From assembly GCA_017515795.1 (NCBI GenBank), contig JAFWEE010000011.1, positions 1 to 32,707 on the forward strand: a stretch of 32,707 nucleotides of DNA, given 5' to 3'. Below the pieces are notes generated by a model. It was not told the DNA's origin and made no database searches. It saw only the letters and a list, made by a program, of their open reading frames with translations. This DNA is from Bacilli bacterium (GTDB lineage: Bacteria; Bacillota_I; Bacilli_A; RF39; UBA660). Numbering within the stretch: position 1 is the stretch's first letter; each line of letters begins with the position of its first letter. Shown here piece after piece: positions 1,889 to 6,845 of the stretch. Position numbers and translations under genes: made by a program.

Positions 1889-1965
1889 GGATTCTTAGCT
1901 CAGTTGGTTAGAGCATCTGCCTTACAAGCAGGAGGTCGAAGGTTCGAGTCCCTCAGAGTCCACCA
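1889..1965 (+). tRNA. tRNA-Val (anticodon TAC)
   Basis: Full cloverleaf with encoded CCA. The acceptor GGATTCT/AGAGTCC pairs with one G-U. The anticodon loop is CTTACAA. The T-stem GAAGG/CCCTC has an A-C mismatch at position 51:63. Confidence 0.95.
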
Positions 1966-1970
1966 TGGAT

Positions 1971-2046
<76 letters not shown>

Positions 2047-2055
2047 TTTTTATAT

Positions 2056-2139
2056 GGGAAGATAGCGAAGTGGCTAAACGCGGCAGACTGTAAATCTGCT
2101 CCTTCGGGTTCGGTGGTTCGAATCCACCTCTTCCCACCA
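2056..2139 (+). tRNA. tRNA-Tyr (anticodon GTA)
   Basis: Class II tRNA with a long variable arm. Acceptor GGGAAGA/TCTTCCC, anticodon loop CTGTAAA, T-stem GGTGG/CCACC, encoded CCA. Confidence 0.96.
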
Positions 2140-2143
2140 GGAT

Positions 2144-2218
2144 TGCCTTGTAGCCAAGTGGTAAGGCATCAGACTTTGACTCTGACATGCGGTAGTTCGA
2201 ATCTACCCAAGGCAGCCA
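2144..2218 (+). tRNA. tRNA-Gln (anticodon TTG)
   Basis: Acceptor TGCCTTG/CAAGGCA with the U1-A72 pair typical of bacterial tRNA-Gln. Anticodon stem TCAGA/TCTGA around CTTTGAC, discriminator G, encoded CCA. Confidence 0.95.
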
Positions 2219-2232
2219 TTTTTAATGTTTAT

Positions 2233-2308
2233 GTCCTGTTAGCTCAGTCGGTAGAGCACTTGACTTTTAATCAAGGGGTCATGCGTTCAAGTCGCATACA
2301 GGACACCA
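2233..2308 (+). tRNA. tRNA-Lys (anticodon TTT)
   Basis: Perfectly paired cloverleaf. Acceptor GTCCTGT/ACAGGAC, anticodon stem CTTGA/TCAAG around CTTTTAA, T-stem ATGCG/CGCAT, encoded CCA. Last tRNA of the first operon. Confidence 0.97.
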
Positions 2309-2316
2309 TTTTAAAA

Positions 2317-2342
2317 AATACTAGGTTTTACCTAGTTTTTTT
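2317..2342 (+). terminator. Terminator of the first tRNA operon
   Basis: Stem ACTAGGT/ACCTAGT with a TTT loop, followed by seven T residues, directly after tRNA-Lys. Confidence 0.9.
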
Positions 2343-2365
2343 GTTATTAAAATTATAAAAAAGTA

Positions 2366-2394
2366 TTGCAAAATAAATAAAAATATATTACAAT
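2366..2394 (+). promoter_or_regulatory. Promoter of the second tRNA operon
   Basis: TTGCAA (2366-2371), 17-base spacer, TACAAT (2389-2394), 27 bases upstream of tRNA-Leu. It follows the terminator of the first cluster, so the two clusters are separate transcription units. Confidence 0.8.
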
Positions 2395-2421
2395 TAAGAA
2401 GTCCAAGCAATTGGGAGATGT

Positions 2422-2510
2422 GCTCTAGTGGCGGAATTGGTAGACGCACAGGACTTAAAATCCTGCGTGAGTCAAATCACGTGCCGGTTCAAGTCCGGCC
2501 TGGAGCACCA
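2422..2510 (+). tRNA. tRNA-Leu (anticodon TAA)
   Basis: Class II tRNA. Acceptor GCTCTAG/CTGGAGC, anticodon stem CAGGA/TCCTG around CTTAAAA, long variable arm, T-stem GCCGG/CCGGC, encoded CCA. Confidence 0.95.
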
Positions 2511-2514
2511 CTTT

Positions 2515-2607
2515 GGAGAAGTACCCAAGTCTGGCTGAAGGGACCGGTCTTGAAAACCGGGAGGTCGGGTAACCGGCGCAGGGGTTCGAATCCCTTCTTC
2601 TCCGCCA
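2515..2607 (+). tRNA. tRNA-Ser (anticodon TGA)
   Basis: Class II tRNA. Acceptor GGAGAAG/CTTCTCC, anticodon stem CCGGT/ACCGG around CTTGAAA, a long GC-rich variable arm, discriminator G, encoded CCA. Confidence 0.95.
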
Positions 2608-2622
2608 TTTTAAAATATATAT

Positions 2623-2699
2623 CGCGGGATGGAGCAGTCTGGAAGCTCGTCGGGCTCATAACCCGAAGGTCGTTGGTTCAAATCCAACTCCCGCAACCA
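2623..2699 (+). tRNA. Initiator tRNA-fMet (anticodon CAT)
   Basis: Anticodon loop CTCATAA on a stem ending in GGG/CCC, and a C1-A72 mismatch in the acceptor (CGCGGGA/TCCCGCA). These two hallmarks identify the initiator rather than the elongator. CCA is encoded. Confidence 0.96.
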
Positions 2700-2701
2700 T
2701 T

Positions 2702-2777
2702 GGTTCCGTGGTGTAGTGGTTAACACGTCTGCCTGTCACGCAGAAGATCGAGGGTTCAAGTCCCTTCGGAACCGCCA
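2702..2777 (+). tRNA. tRNA-Asp (anticodon GTC)
   Basis: Acceptor GGTTCCG/CGGAACC, anticodon stem TCTGC/GCAGA around CTGTCAC, discriminator G, encoded CCA. Confidence 0.96.
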
Positions 2778-2790
2778 TTTTTTTTATGTT

Positions 2791-2866
2791 GGCTCTATAG
2801 CTCAGTAGGTAGAGCACAGGACTGAAAATCCTGGTGTCGGTGGTTCGATCCCACCTGGAGCCACCA
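2791..2866 (+). tRNA. tRNA-Phe (anticodon GAA)
   Basis: Acceptor GGCTCTA/TGGAGCC, anticodon stem with loop CTGAAAA, T-stem GGTGG/CCACC, encoded CCA. Last tRNA of the second operon. Confidence 0.96.
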
Positions 2867-2902: not shown

Positions 2903-2921
2903 ATTTTTTATATAATAAATA

Positions 2922-2930
2922 TGTTATAAT
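2922..2930 (+). promoter_or_regulatory. Extended -10 promoter of the envelope operon
   Basis: TGT-TATAAT 25 bases before the sulfatase-fold gene; no clear -35. It follows the tRNA terminator, so this gene starts its own unit. Confidence 0.65.
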
Positions 2931-2954
2931 TATTTGTGTTAGTAGAGGTTAAAT

Positions 2955-4574
2955 ATGAAAAAAGTATTATTAAGATTATTACCAGTTTTTATTGTGTCAT
3001 TTGTTTTATCATTTATGATGATAATATACGAACCAACATTATTATTTATATCTAGTTTTGAAGATTTTTGGTTTACTTTTGGAATGATGTTGAAAATGAA
3101 TATAGTATTATTTTTAATAGCATTCATTTTATTATCTTTATTTGGTATTGGATTATATTACCTAGGTAAGAAGATTAATAAAGAATGGATTATAAATATT
3201 TATTTAATCTTATTATCTTCAGGATTCTTATTCTTTTATATACAAGGAAATTATTTTTCAAGTAAACTACCAATATTAGATGGGTCTCCAATTGAATGGG
3301 GTAGTTTTAAACTAGAATCTATTATTTCAGTTTTATTAGTTATTTTTGCTCTTGGTTTAAATATAGTTTTATATAAAAAGAAAAAAGATATTTATAATAA
3401 GATTGTATCTTATATAGCAGTAATAATTTTTGTATTATTATTAACAGGTTTAATACCATCTATTATTAAGAATAAAAGTGCTTTAAATAGTACAGTTAAA
3501 TGTACTTCATCACTTGAAAATATTAATAAATTGTCTTCTAATAAGAACTTTTTAATACTTGTTGTTGATATGTTAGATTCAAGAACATTTGCAAAAGTAT
3601 TAAAGGAAGAGAATAAAGAAGATTTATTTAAAGACTTTACTTATTATCCTGATACTTTATCAGCATATTCTTATACAAGAGAATCTATTCCATTTATGAT
3701 GTCTGGAAAATGGTATGAATTAGATGGAGAATACTCTGATTATTATAATGATTCATTTGATAATTCACCTTTATTAAAAAGATTAAGAAAAGAAGATTAT
3801 GATATTAATATTTATGAACAAGATATGCAATGGACAAGTAAGAAATGTTTAGATGTTAATAATATGAATATGTCTTCATATAAAGTTAGTTTATTTTCAT
3901 TTGCAAAACAAGAATCTAAATATTTAATATTTAAATATTTTCCATATCCTTTAAAAAGATTTTCTAAAATATTAACTATGAATTTTAATTCTATTAGAGA
4001 AAATACTTTTGAAGCTGATAATAAAGTAGTATTTAATACATTAGATGATATTGAATTACAAGATAACAATTATTTCCAATTTATTCATATTGATGGAGGA
4101 CATTATCCATGGAATATGGATGAAAACTTTAATATAGTAGAAAATAGTACTTATGAAGATAAGATTAAGGCTTCTATTAAAGTAATAGATAAATATTTAA
4201 CAAGAATTAAAGATAGTGGTCAATATGATAATACTGCTATTATTGTATTAGCAGACCATGGTACAAATGGTTGGGAATACACAGGAAGACAGAATCCATC
4301 ATTATATATTAAAGGAATTAATGAACATCATGATAGTATGATTATATCTGATAAGAAAGTATCACAAGTGGATCTTGTAGATAGTATTTATGATGATTTA
4401 CTTGATGGAAAAACTAGTGAAGAGTTATTAAAAGATATAGGTACAGATAGAGTAAGAAGACATCTTTGGTATAAAGATATGACTTATGATAAATACTTTG
4501 AACAAACAACTGATGGAAATGCTTGGGATACAGATAATCTTAAAAATACAGGCACAATATACGAAAGAAAATAG
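2955..4574 (+). CDS. Membrane-anchored sulfatase/alkaline-phosphatase-fold enzyme
   Basis: A 539-residue protein with about five hydrophobic helices in residues 5-170, then a large extracytoplasmic domain of the alkaline phosphatase superfamily. Metal-site signs are VVDMLD (D205), a probable nucleophile T241 in YSYTRESIPFMMSG, HIDGGHYPW (H383) and LADHG (D434, H435). The layout resembles LTA synthase and other phosphoglycerol or phosphoethanolamine transferases, but the primary motifs differ from LtaS, so the substrate is not known. RBS AGAGG. It heads a three-gene operon, 8 bases before a gene with a TagF-like domain. Both neighbours suggest a glycerol-phosphate or similar phosphodiester modification of the envelope; this is inference. 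Confidence 0.8.
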   Translation: MKKVLLRLLPVFIVSFVLSFMMIIYEPTLLFISSFEDFWFTFGMMLKMNIVLFLIAFILLSLFGIGLYYLGKKINKEWIINIYLILLSSGFLFFYIQGNYFSSKLPILDGSPIEWGSFKLESIISVLLVIFALGLNIVLYKKKKDIYNKIVSYIAVIIFVLLLTGLIPSIIKNKSALNSTVKCTSSLENINKLSSNKNFLILVVDMLDSRTFAKVLKEENKEDLFKDFTYYPDTLSAYSYTRESIPFMMSGKWYELDGEYSDYYNDSFDNSPLLKRLRKEDYDINIYEQDMQWTSKKCLDVNNMNMSSYKVSLFSFAKQESKYLIFKYFPYPLKRFSKILTMNFNSIRENTFEADNKVVFNTLDDIELQDNNYFQFIHIDGGHYPWNMDENFNIVENSTYEDKIKASIKVIDKYLTRIKDSGQYDNTAIIVLADHGTNGWEYTGRQNPSLYIKGINEHHDSMIISDKKVSQVDLVDSIYDDLLDGKTSEELLKDIGTDRVRRHLWYKDMTYDKYFEQTTDGNAWDTDNLKNTGTIYERK

Positions 4575-4582
4575 GTGAGATT

Positions 4583-6634
4583 ATGTTTTTGGTAGACATT
4601 TTAGGAAAGATAATGAGATTTTGCTATAACATATTTAATAATTATGGATTAGCAATTATCTTATTCACATTTATAAGCAAGATTGTATTATTACCAATTT
4701 CAATTTGGGTTCAAAAGAATTCAATTAAGATGGTAAAAATGCAACCAGAAATTAATAAGATTAAAATAAAATATTTTGGAGATAAAGATAAGATAGCAGA
4801 TGAAACATCTAAATTATATAAGAAAGAAAAGTATAATGCATTAGTATCTTTAATACCTTTATTTATTCAAATACTATTATTAATGGGATTAGTTAGTGTA
4901 ATTAATCATCCATTAGATTATATTTTAAACTTTAAAGATGAAACTACTACAAGAGCAGTTGAAACAATGATGAAAAATCATAAAGAAGTAGATAAAGATT
5001 CATCATCAAAGGAATTAGTAGTAGTTAATGATATTAAAACAAATAATATTGATTATAGTAAAGACTTAACTACTAAAGAAATAGATAAAGTTAAAGATTT
5101 AAAAATGAATTTTTCAAAGTTTGATTTAAGTTGGGTAGCTGTTCAAAAGAAAGGTATAGCATGGCTTATTCCTTTAATAGCAGGCTTAAGTGCACTAATA
5201 CTTTGTATTGGTCAAAATATGATGAATGTTCTTCAAAAAGAACAAGGAGCATTAAATAAATATGGTATGCTTGCTTTATCTGTTGGATTATCTTTATATT
5301 TAGGTATGTTTGTACCAGCAGGAGTAGCCCTATATTGGACTGCATCAAATATATTTGCAGTTATTCAACAATGGCTATTAAACATATTTATTAATCCAAA
5401 AAAATATGTAGATTATGAAGCATTAGAAACAACAAGTAAAGAATTAAAAGAAATGAATTCTTCTACTAAAGTTAAAAGATCTAGTGAAATGATAAAGAAA
5501 GAAAAACAAGACTATAAAAGATTCTTTTCTGTTGTTAATAAACATTTAGTATTCTATTCAGAATCTAATGGTTTTTATAAATATTATAAAGGTGTAATTG
5601 AATACCTATTAAAGAATACAAATATGACTATTCACTATATAACAAGTGATTATAATGATAATATCTTTAATTTAGAAAAAGAGAATAATCAAATAAAAGC
5701 ATATTATATAGGAGAAAGAAAATTAATTACTCTTATGATGAAAATGGATGCTGATGTAGTTGTTATGACTATGCCAGATCTTGAAACATATCATATTAAG
5801 AGGAGTTATATTAGAAAAGATGTTCATTATGTATATTATCCTCATGGTCAAGGAAGTACTAATTTAACACTTAGATATAAAGCAACATTTAATTATGATA
5901 CTATATTTACAACAGGTAAAGGTCAACAAGATGAAGAAGAGATATTCAATAAAAAGTATAAATTAAATAGAGTATTATTTAAATTTGGTTATCCTCTTTT
6001 AGATGATATGATTGCAAGTTATAAAGAAAAGAAAGAATCTAAAAAGAAAACTATTCTTATTGCACCATCATGGCAAAAAGATAATATAGTAGACCTATGC
6101 TTAGAAGACATATTAGATAATATAAAGGATGAAGACTATAATGTTATAGTTAGACCTCATCCACAACAAGTAAGACATAAAAAAGAATACTTTGAACAAA
6201 TGAAAGAAAAGTATTCTAATAATGAAAATATTGAAATTCAAACAGATTTTTCAAAAACAAATACAGTATTTGATTCTGATTTAGTAATTACAGATTGGTC
6301 TGATATTGGTTTTGAATATGCTTTTACAACTAAAAAACCAGTATTATATATTAATACTCCAATGAAAGTAATGAATCCAAATTATAAGGATATTGATATA
6401 GTTCCATTAAATGTATGGGCGAGAGATAAAATAGGAAAATCATTAGATGTAAAAGATTTAAATAAAACAAAAGATACAATTAGAGAACTATTGAAAGATA
6501 AAGATAAATATAGTAAAATTATTACAAAAGTAATGAATGAATATGTATACAACATAGGAAACAGTTCTGAAGTTGGTGCAAATTATATCATTGATTTAAT
6601 TCAAAAGAAAATAAAGGAGAAGAAAGATAAATGA
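4583..6634 (+). CDS. YidC/Oxa1-like insertase fused to CDP-glycerol glycerophosphotransferase (TagF/TagB-like) domain
   Basis: A 683-residue two-domain protein. Residues ~10-270 match YidC/Oxa1: NYGLAIILFTFISKIVLLPIS; KMQPEINKIKIKY with a basic cytoplasmic hairpin; IPLFIQILL; and the signature VPAGVALYWTASNIFAVIQQ. The groove arginine is replaced by K33, and an ~80-residue hydrophilic stretch (110-190) is inserted. Residues ~318-683 are a cytoplasmic glycerophosphotransferase domain: YYPHGQG (H421), FGYPLLD, APSWQ, RPHPQ (H526) and ITDWSDIGFEYA. Both halves are in one continuous frame with no internal ribosome site that I can see. Known TagF enzymes attach to the membrane by amphipathic helices, so an insertase-type anchor is unusual. 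Function is not established: it may polymerise glycerol phosphate at the membrane or couple a precursor to the flanking sulfatase-fold enzyme. Confidence 0.85.
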   Translation: MFLVDILGKIMRFCYNIFNNYGLAIILFTFISKIVLLPISIWVQKNSIKMVKMQPEINKIKIKYFGDKDKIADETSKLYKKEKYNALVSLIPLFIQILLLMGLVSVINHPLDYILNFKDETTTRAVETMMKNHKEVDKDSSSKELVVVNDIKTNNIDYSKDLTTKEIDKVKDLKMNFSKFDLSWVAVQKKGIAWLIPLIAGLSALILCIGQNMMNVLQKEQGALNKYGMLALSVGLSLYLGMFVPAGVALYWTASNIFAVIQQWLLNIFINPKKYVDYEALETTSKELKEMNSSTKVKRSSEMIKKEKQDYKRFFSVVNKHLVFYSESNGFYKYYKGVIEYLLKNTNMTIHYITSDYNDNIFNLEKENNQIKAYYIGERKLITLMMKMDADVVVMTMPDLETYHIKRSYIRKDVHYVYYPHGQGSTNLTLRYKATFNYDTIFTTGKGQQDEEEIFNKKYKLNRVLFKFGYPLLDDMIASYKEKKESKKKTILIAPSWQKDNIVDLCLEDILDNIKDEDYNVIVRPHPQQVRHKKEYFEQMKEKYSNNENIEIQTDFSKTNTVFDSDLVITDWSDIGFEYAFTTKKPVLYINTPMKVMNPNYKDIDIVPLNVWARDKIGKSLDVKDLNKTKDTIRELLKDKDKYSKIITKVMNEYVYNIGNSSEVGANYIIDLIQKKIKEKKDK

Positions 6635-6828
6635 TGAATACATTATATATTGATCCATCTGTTATGACATATGCTATTCAAGCAATTGCAGGTATAGTTA
6701 TAGCTATTGGTGCAACTGTTGGAATAATATGGAGAAAATCAAAAAAGAAAGTTTCTAAAACTCTTGGAATTGATGAAAATAAGAATAAAGAAGTAGAATC
6801 AGATGAAATAATAGTTAAAAAAGACTAA
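6631..6828 (+). CDS. Small single-helix membrane protein of the envelope operon
   Basis: A 65-residue protein with a short N-terminus containing YIDPSVM, one hydrophobic helix (~13-33), then a basic patch (WRKSKKKVSK) and an acidic tail, so the C-terminus should be cytoplasmic. Its ATG overlaps the stop of the fusion gene (ATGA), and AAGGAGA lies 10 bases upstream inside that gene, so translation is coupled. From memory, short proteins starting with a YIDPG-like motif occur beside sulfatase-type envelope genes in Clostridia; I cannot confirm that here. It may be an accessory subunit of the fusion enzyme. The biochemical role is unknown. Confidence 0.75.
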   Translation: MMNTLYIDPSVMTYAIQAIAGIVIAIGATVGIIWRKSKKKVSKTLGIDENKNKEVESDEIIVKKD

Positions 6829-6845
6829 TCAATAGTCTTTTTTTA
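6817..6845 (+). terminator. Terminator of the envelope operon
   Basis: Stem AAGACTA/TAGTCTT with loop ATCAA and a run of T. The TAA stop of the small protein lies at the loop edge. Confidence 0.9.

Follow-up and report, generated by a model that had tools for sequence, protein, structure and literature searches.

Organization of the locus

The window analyzed here is a 32,707-nucleotide stretch of contig JAFWEE010000011.1 from a Bacilli bacterium (GTDB lineage RF39; UBA660), and it carries a three-gene unit closed by a putative terminator-like hairpin (Table 1). The central gene encodes a YidC/Oxa1 domain and a TagF-like phosphotransferase (GT) domain in a single chain. It lies 8 bp downstream of a gene for a membrane enzyme of the sulfatase fold and is followed by a gene for a small protein with one transmembrane (TM) helix, here called YIDP after its invariant motif Y-(I/L)-D-P-S. 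The N-terminus of YIDP is predicted to lie outside the cell and its basic tail inside. PADLOC returned no defense match for the three genes.

Table 1. Coordinates of the fusion gene, its partners and the slot that holds them
Feature	Position in the window	Strand	Remarks
Module slot between tRNA array and helD	2903..6838	.	Sister-species comparison
Sulfatase-fold (alkaline-phosphatase superfamily) membrane enzyme	2955..4574	+	539 aa; profile and structure matches
YidC::TagF-like fusion	4583-6634	+	One unbroken frame, 683 aa
YidC/Oxa1 domain, residues 1-274	4583..5404	+	Five TM helices (AlphaFold and homology)
Groove Lys33 codon, YidC domain	4679-4681	+	
Helical linker from YidC to transferase, residues 275-316	5405..5530	+	Model helices 278-293 and 301-316
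TagF/TarL-like GT-B CDP-alcohol phosphotransferase domain, residues 317-683	5531..6631	+	
One-TM 'YIDPS' protein	6631..6828	+	65 aa; ATG overlaps fusion stop by 4 bp (ATGA)
Putative terminator-like hairpin, AAAGACTA / TAGTCTTT then T-run	6820..6844	+	Read from sequence

That YidC and a TagF-like transferase share one chain had been proposed in a first-pass annotation of this DNA, and Pfam, AlphaFold, Foldseek and the relatives of the protein now agree on it. Residues 21-267 match the YidC family (PF02096, 60KD_IMP; E 9e-35) over profile positions 1-162 of 163, with 120 bits against a family cut-off of 35, and NCBIfam gives the same assignment. The profile is matched by all 74 full-length relatives, which upholds the earlier placement of residues ~10-270 in this family. 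Foldseek pairs the N-terminal half with YidC of B. halodurans (3wo6; E 1.6e-5, TM-score 0.71 by target length), and the invariant groove and TM residues of this half include Y251, W252, N256 and P38. TM helices are numbered here from the model and from homology because a simple hydropathy count fuses the last two YidC helices.

The C-terminal half, searched alone, gave nothing in Pfam at E 0.001, and sequence searches of the PDB, with a single sequence or a profile, matched the YidC half alone. When PF04464 (Glyphos_transf) is run on the bacterium's own genome, positions 5927-6352 score above the curated cut-off (45.6 bits vs 22.1; E 1e-12), and the same profile is matched by 63 of the 74 full-length relatives (E up to 0.01, at best 2.6e-18). 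By structure, the top Foldseek matches are TagF, TarL and TagF-like capsule polymerases, and VIA places TagF first (Z 21.8 over 339 residues, 5.2 Å rmsd). H421, R524, H526, D571 and S573 are invariant in the alignment of all 74 relatives. Residues 317-683 have a GT-B fold with conserved His/Asp motifs, presumably catalytic. In the AlphaFold model of the entire fusion (mean pLDDT 89.8) both halves fold as the first-pass annotation had supposed, and the linker between them probably lies on the cytoplasmic side after TM5, judging from YidC topology.

The sulfatase-fold enzyme (model pLDDT 93) consists of five N-terminal TM helices and a catalytic domain (residues ~195-539) that resembles YejM, LtaS/LtaP and EptA/MCR-1, and also true sulfatases. 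D205, T241, H378, H383, D434 and H435 are invariant across 43 relatives; by homology, T241 would be the catalytic residue and the Asp and His positions metal ligands.

Distribution and genomic context

Scanning 84,980 species genomes turned up 254 relatives, of which the best 80 were examined. In 79 of these 80 the fusion is a single frame, and the proteins are mostly 630-720 aa long and distributed over several classes in two phyla. Their hosts are Bacilli, Erysipelotrichaceae/Solobacterium, Lachnospiraceae, Oscillospiraceae and Saccharibacteria. The relatives stem chiefly from metagenome assemblies, and isolates include Lachnospiraceae COE1, G41 and IMSAGC_011. Closer to home, the fusion was found in none of 11 same-genus relatives searched, and 386 genomes of the same family contain five others with a full-length copy, 64-69% identical in the C-terminal half. 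No frameshift or stop separates the domains: these five genomes and nearly all 80 public contigs likewise have both in a single frame. Another member of the family, G116, has a broken copy in decay, a remnant of the transferase half (L045:9052-9635).

Whether the sulfatase-fold gene and YIDP always travel with the fusion had been raised as a check; they commonly do so, though not always. Of 79 public loci, 61 have a sulfatase nearby and 63 have YIDP, as a protein or as a domain; where at least 4.5 kb of flanking DNA is available on both sides, 44 of 47 loci have at least one of these partners. Within the family, sulfatase homologues occur in 6 of the 386 genomes, five of which also hold the fusion (hypergeometric p 5e-10).

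In a quick tree built on MAG bins, the 14 fusions from Saccharibacteria form one clade (support 100) within a set of Bacilli and Clostridia (97). This nested position makes at least one inter-phylum transfer likely. The Saccharibacteria loci (L065-L089), from CPR bacteria with tiny genomes, come mostly from rumen and gut samples. Searches of viral contigs found no relative of the fusion, plasmids gave ordinary YidC matches only, and a viral structure search gave generic glycosyltransferase-fold matches only.

The module of the window is flanked by an array of ten tRNA genes and by helD. DNA of a sister species is 94-97% identical upstream and 83% identical downstream, and the same slot holds unrelated genes there. 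This variable slot next to tRNA genes is what a mobile surface locus would be expected to occupy. In the sister species G006, the slot (window 1889-2866 and 2903-6838; L191) contains, as read by eye, nucleotidyltransferase-like and NUDIX-like genes and two others.

Permuted fusions of four parts

The strongest new evidence that transferase, YidC, sulfatase and YIDP form one machine is that their covalent connections are permuted. Triple fusions in the order sulfatase::YidC::GT are encoded at L121 (1192 aa), L133 (1202 aa) and L122, where the 1180-aa frame lies at a contig edge, and the order YidC::GT::sulfatase is found at L119 (1359 aa). One genome, G418, has both orders together (L119/L136 and L133). 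In Solobacterium/Erysipelotrichaceae loci (L085 and others), YIDP forms the N-terminus of the sulfatase.

A sister type, found at about ten Lachnospiraceae-type loci, distributes the same parts differently: a YIDP::GT protein (413-460 aa, 721 in L171) is encoded beside a YidC::sulfatase protein (787-964 aa). The transferases of the two types are homologous (E 7e-46 over 349 columns). Four parts that are kept together while their covalent links change very likely belong to one complex. In L170 and L176, YIDP::GT occurs with no recognizable YidC::sulfatase adjoining, so that the sister-type transferase can also be found in other settings. L175 has a small cytidylyltransferase-like gene, identified by eye, between YIDP::GT and YidC::sulfatase (L175:6870-7310), which fits a CDP-alcohol donor.

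The altered groove of the YidC domain

YidC/Oxa1 proteins are known as insertases, and a conserved arginine in the groove of TM1 is the mark of a functional YidC insertase. This arginine is absent from the fusion. The first-pass annotation had read K33 in its place, and the substitution is confirmed as a hallmark of the class: the residue is Lys in 73 of 74 fusions and Arg in one, compared to Arg in 21 of 21 aligned ordinary YidC homologues, while the YidC of the sister type has Asn or Gln. These replacements suggest that general insertion is no longer a task of the groove, an argument that is suggestive only, as Lys retains the charge. A second, ordinary YidC, whose presence in the genome had been raised as a check, is encoded on contig C10.

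Candidate genes for activated amino-alcohols

Genes for the activation of amino-alcohols lie within 8 kb of the fusion in 36 of 79 loci (none in the other 43). The most frequent is a cytidylyltransferase joined to a CobD-like PLP enzyme (21/79 loci), for which CobD, threonine-phosphate decarboxylase, is the best NCBIfam match. At least one phosphonate gene, of PepM, Ppd, 2-aminoethylphosphonate (AEP) transaminase and cytidylyltransferase, is found in 8 of the 79. The AEP-type loci encode PEP mutase with a cytidylyltransferase domain, phosphonopyruvate decarboxylase, AEP transaminase and an NTP transferase. All six PepM proteins contain EDKX5NS, the motif of Ppm (PMC6697681). The 36 loci also include some with a HisC-like enzyme or a glycerol-3-phosphate-cytidylyltransferase::oxidoreductase (6 each). 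The recurring neighbors of the module suggest donors of the amino-alcohol kind, activated with CDP or CMP.

The cytidylyltransferase::CobD gene is not confined to carriers of the fusion: 6 genomes of the family have the gene without it (enrichment with the fusion, p 0.005), so other pathways share this gene. Two-domain proteins in which a cytidylyltransferase is joined to a CobD/HisC-like PLP enzyme are encoded at L054:1461-3203, L107:8152-9963, L194 and L197, and possibly make CDP-ethanolamine from phosphoserine. In the last two loci, from fusion-less genomes, the CobD-type gene adjoins a stand-alone TagF-like protein, as judged by eye. Neither the window nor the 684 kb searched of the bacterium's own genome, which is 66% complete, holds a donor cassette, and the cytidylyltransferase::CobD gene was not found in this genome. 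Phosphoethanolamine and AEP are one oxygen apart, and a single transferase could therefore act on either.

Topology and a proposed relay

YidC has its N-terminus outside and its C-terminus inside, which would place the C-terminal TagF-like domain in the cytosol. In the sulfatase-fold enzyme, five TM helices and a basic N-terminus on the inside would bring the catalytic domain to the extracytoplasmic face. An outside sulfatase domain can run into the outside N-terminus of YidC, as in L121, and in L119 the sulfatase can restart from the inside after a cytosolic transferase. YIDP, with its basic C-terminal tail, can lead into a cytosolic transferase or into the inside N-terminus of the sulfatase. 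On homology and modeled helices, every order observed would fit one layout, with the transferase inside, YidC in the membrane and the sulfatase outside.

A transmembrane relay by this four-part machine is the best reading of these data, although we hold it only tentatively, as a claim that falls just short of an even call. The same tentative status applies, jointly, to the view that the module in the window is a mobile form, with three genes, of a conserved envelope phosphotransfer machine that has four parts. The module and the topology of the machine are supported, and we infer the substrate, the lipid and the flipping. First, a CDP- or CMP-activated amino-alcohol, such as a CDP-ethanolamine-like compound or CMP-2-aminoethylphosphonate, would be made in the cytosol. 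The TagF-like domain would then move the phosphoryl or phosphonyl group onto a lipid carrier, and the polar head would cross the membrane along the YidC groove, which lacks the usual Arg and might act as a dedicated scramblase. On the outside, the sulfatase-fold enzyme would use its invariant Thr to put the group onto a surface glycan, a lipid or a teichoic-acid-like polymer, while YIDP would keep the complex together.

The part of the relay that concerns the membrane step is more doubtful, if still conceivable: that the YidC core has given up protein insertion and become a dedicated translocator of a lipid-linked phospho-amino-alcohol or phosphonate, situated between an inside maker and an outside user. 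Triple fusions of the L121 type would then be a relay from inside to outside in one chain. The first-pass annotation had listed a channel for lipid-linked substrate among the roles open to the YidC half, and this idea is now among the best-fitting ones, strengthened by the permuted fusions and by a preprint on E. coli YidC, which acts there as a lipid scramblase in liposomes (PMC10491306). The scrambling result concerns an ordinary YidC and may reflect a generic property of insertases.

It is unlikely that the YidC domain is instead a dedicated insertase or chaperone that inserts and folds the sulfatase and YIDP co-translationally, the transferase tether just holding the complex together. Such a role would be in keeping with a core that retains the family signature and, with Lys, a positive groove residue, and YIDP has the small size typical of YidC substrates. 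However, the genome has an ordinary YidC, the groove residue of the sister type is Asn or Gln, L121, L122 and L119 have the sulfatase in the same chain as YidC, and the fusion of YidC to a cytosolic transferase in most lineages is left unexplained. A chaperone for the sulfatase, also proposed at first, keeps a small share of the probability, and it explains poorly why YidC has the cytosolic transferase attached in one lineage and the sulfatase in a different one.

A passive anchor or scaffold is improbable as well. Here YidC would only place the cytosolic transferase beneath the extracellular enzyme, and another flippase would move the lipid. Anchoring as such is within the reach of a single helix, since that of YIDP alone provides it for the sister-type transferase, but the YidC core has been kept over many lineages with all five TM helices and with invariant residues in the groove and the helices, which an anchor would not need. 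YidC is kept even when it is fused to a sulfatase that has TM helices of its own.

Still less probable is a classical teichoic-acid pair, in which the TagF-like domain would polymerize glycerol- or ribitol-phosphate from a CDP-alditol and the sulfatase would be LtaS-like. The fold and Pfam matches to TagF/TarL and the partner's match to LtaS are what this explanation would predict, and a glycerol-3-phosphate (G3P)-cytidylyltransferase-like domain is near the fusion in 6 loci. These cytidylyltransferases, however, are joined to an oxidoreductase, and most are encoded after a HisC-like PLP enzyme (itself in 6 loci); other loci have CobD-like or AEP genes, and all of these point to amino-alcohols. 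A second PF04464 protein, as needed for a linkage unit, was not found in the searched part of the bacterium's own genome. Nothing points to the poly(glycerol phosphate) of wall teichoic acid, the product that TagF-type enzymes had brought to mind in the first-pass annotation, and the recurring neighbors suggest CDP- or CMP-activated amino-alcohols. Finally, the idea that the fusion arose by faulty sequencing or assembly or is a chimera in decay, which a fragmented partial assembly and the broken copy in G116 might bring to mind, is refuted by the conserved junction. This junction recurs, at 46-69% protein identity and with the catalytic residues invariant, in more than 70 independent assemblies, and the idea has practically no probability left.

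Relation to known systems

Each part of the machine comes from a known family; the open-licence papers searched describe neither the machine nor its permuted fusions or its spread. With YidC/Oxa1 proteins such as SpoIIIJ, YidC2 and E. coli YidC, the fusion has PF02096, the five-TM core and structural matches (3wo6 and 6al2) in common. It differs from these insertases by having Lys where they have the groove Arg (the sister type has Asn/Gln), by being joined to a transferase in the cytosol or to a sulfatase outside the cell, and by its occurrence beside a normal YidC. A conserved YidC joined to envelope phosphotransferases would give the YidC fold a new job and would be a natural case in which to test whether insertases move lipids, as recently claimed.

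TagF, TarL and the TagF-like capsule polymerases (PF04464) share with the transferase half the GT-B CDP-alcohol transferase fold and conserved His/Asp/Ser motifs. In the fusion, YidC stands in place of the N-terminal part of TagF, and the context suggests amino-alcohol rather than alditol donors. LtaS, EptA/MCR-1 and YejM/PbgA resemble the sulfatase-fold partner in having five TM helices and an extracytoplasmic domain of the alkaline-phosphatase superfamily with a Thr and probable metal ligands. The partner is distant from them, with 12-16% identity to solved chains, and is fused to or encoded with YidC, a TagF-like domain and YIDP.

The Pnt/Lic pathway decorates surfaces with phosphonate or phosphocholine (PMC6697681), and several loci, though not the one in the window, have genes of its kind beside the module, for a Ppm with a cytidylyltransferase fused to it, Ppd, AEP transaminase and an NTP transferase. 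Rice et al. (2019; PMC6697681) propose LicD-like or glycosyltransferase reactions for the end steps of that pathway, a place that the TagF-like/YidC/sulfatase machine would take here; YidC, TagF and sulfatases go unmentioned in their paper. The machine is a candidate for how cytosolic CMP- or CDP-activated phosphonates and amino-alcohols reach the surface of gut bacteria. As to the acceptor side, six to seven tandem paralogous sulfatase-fold genes, one of them split by a stop, lie directly before the fusion in L073 / L044:825-12359, an array that suggests diversification of acceptors.
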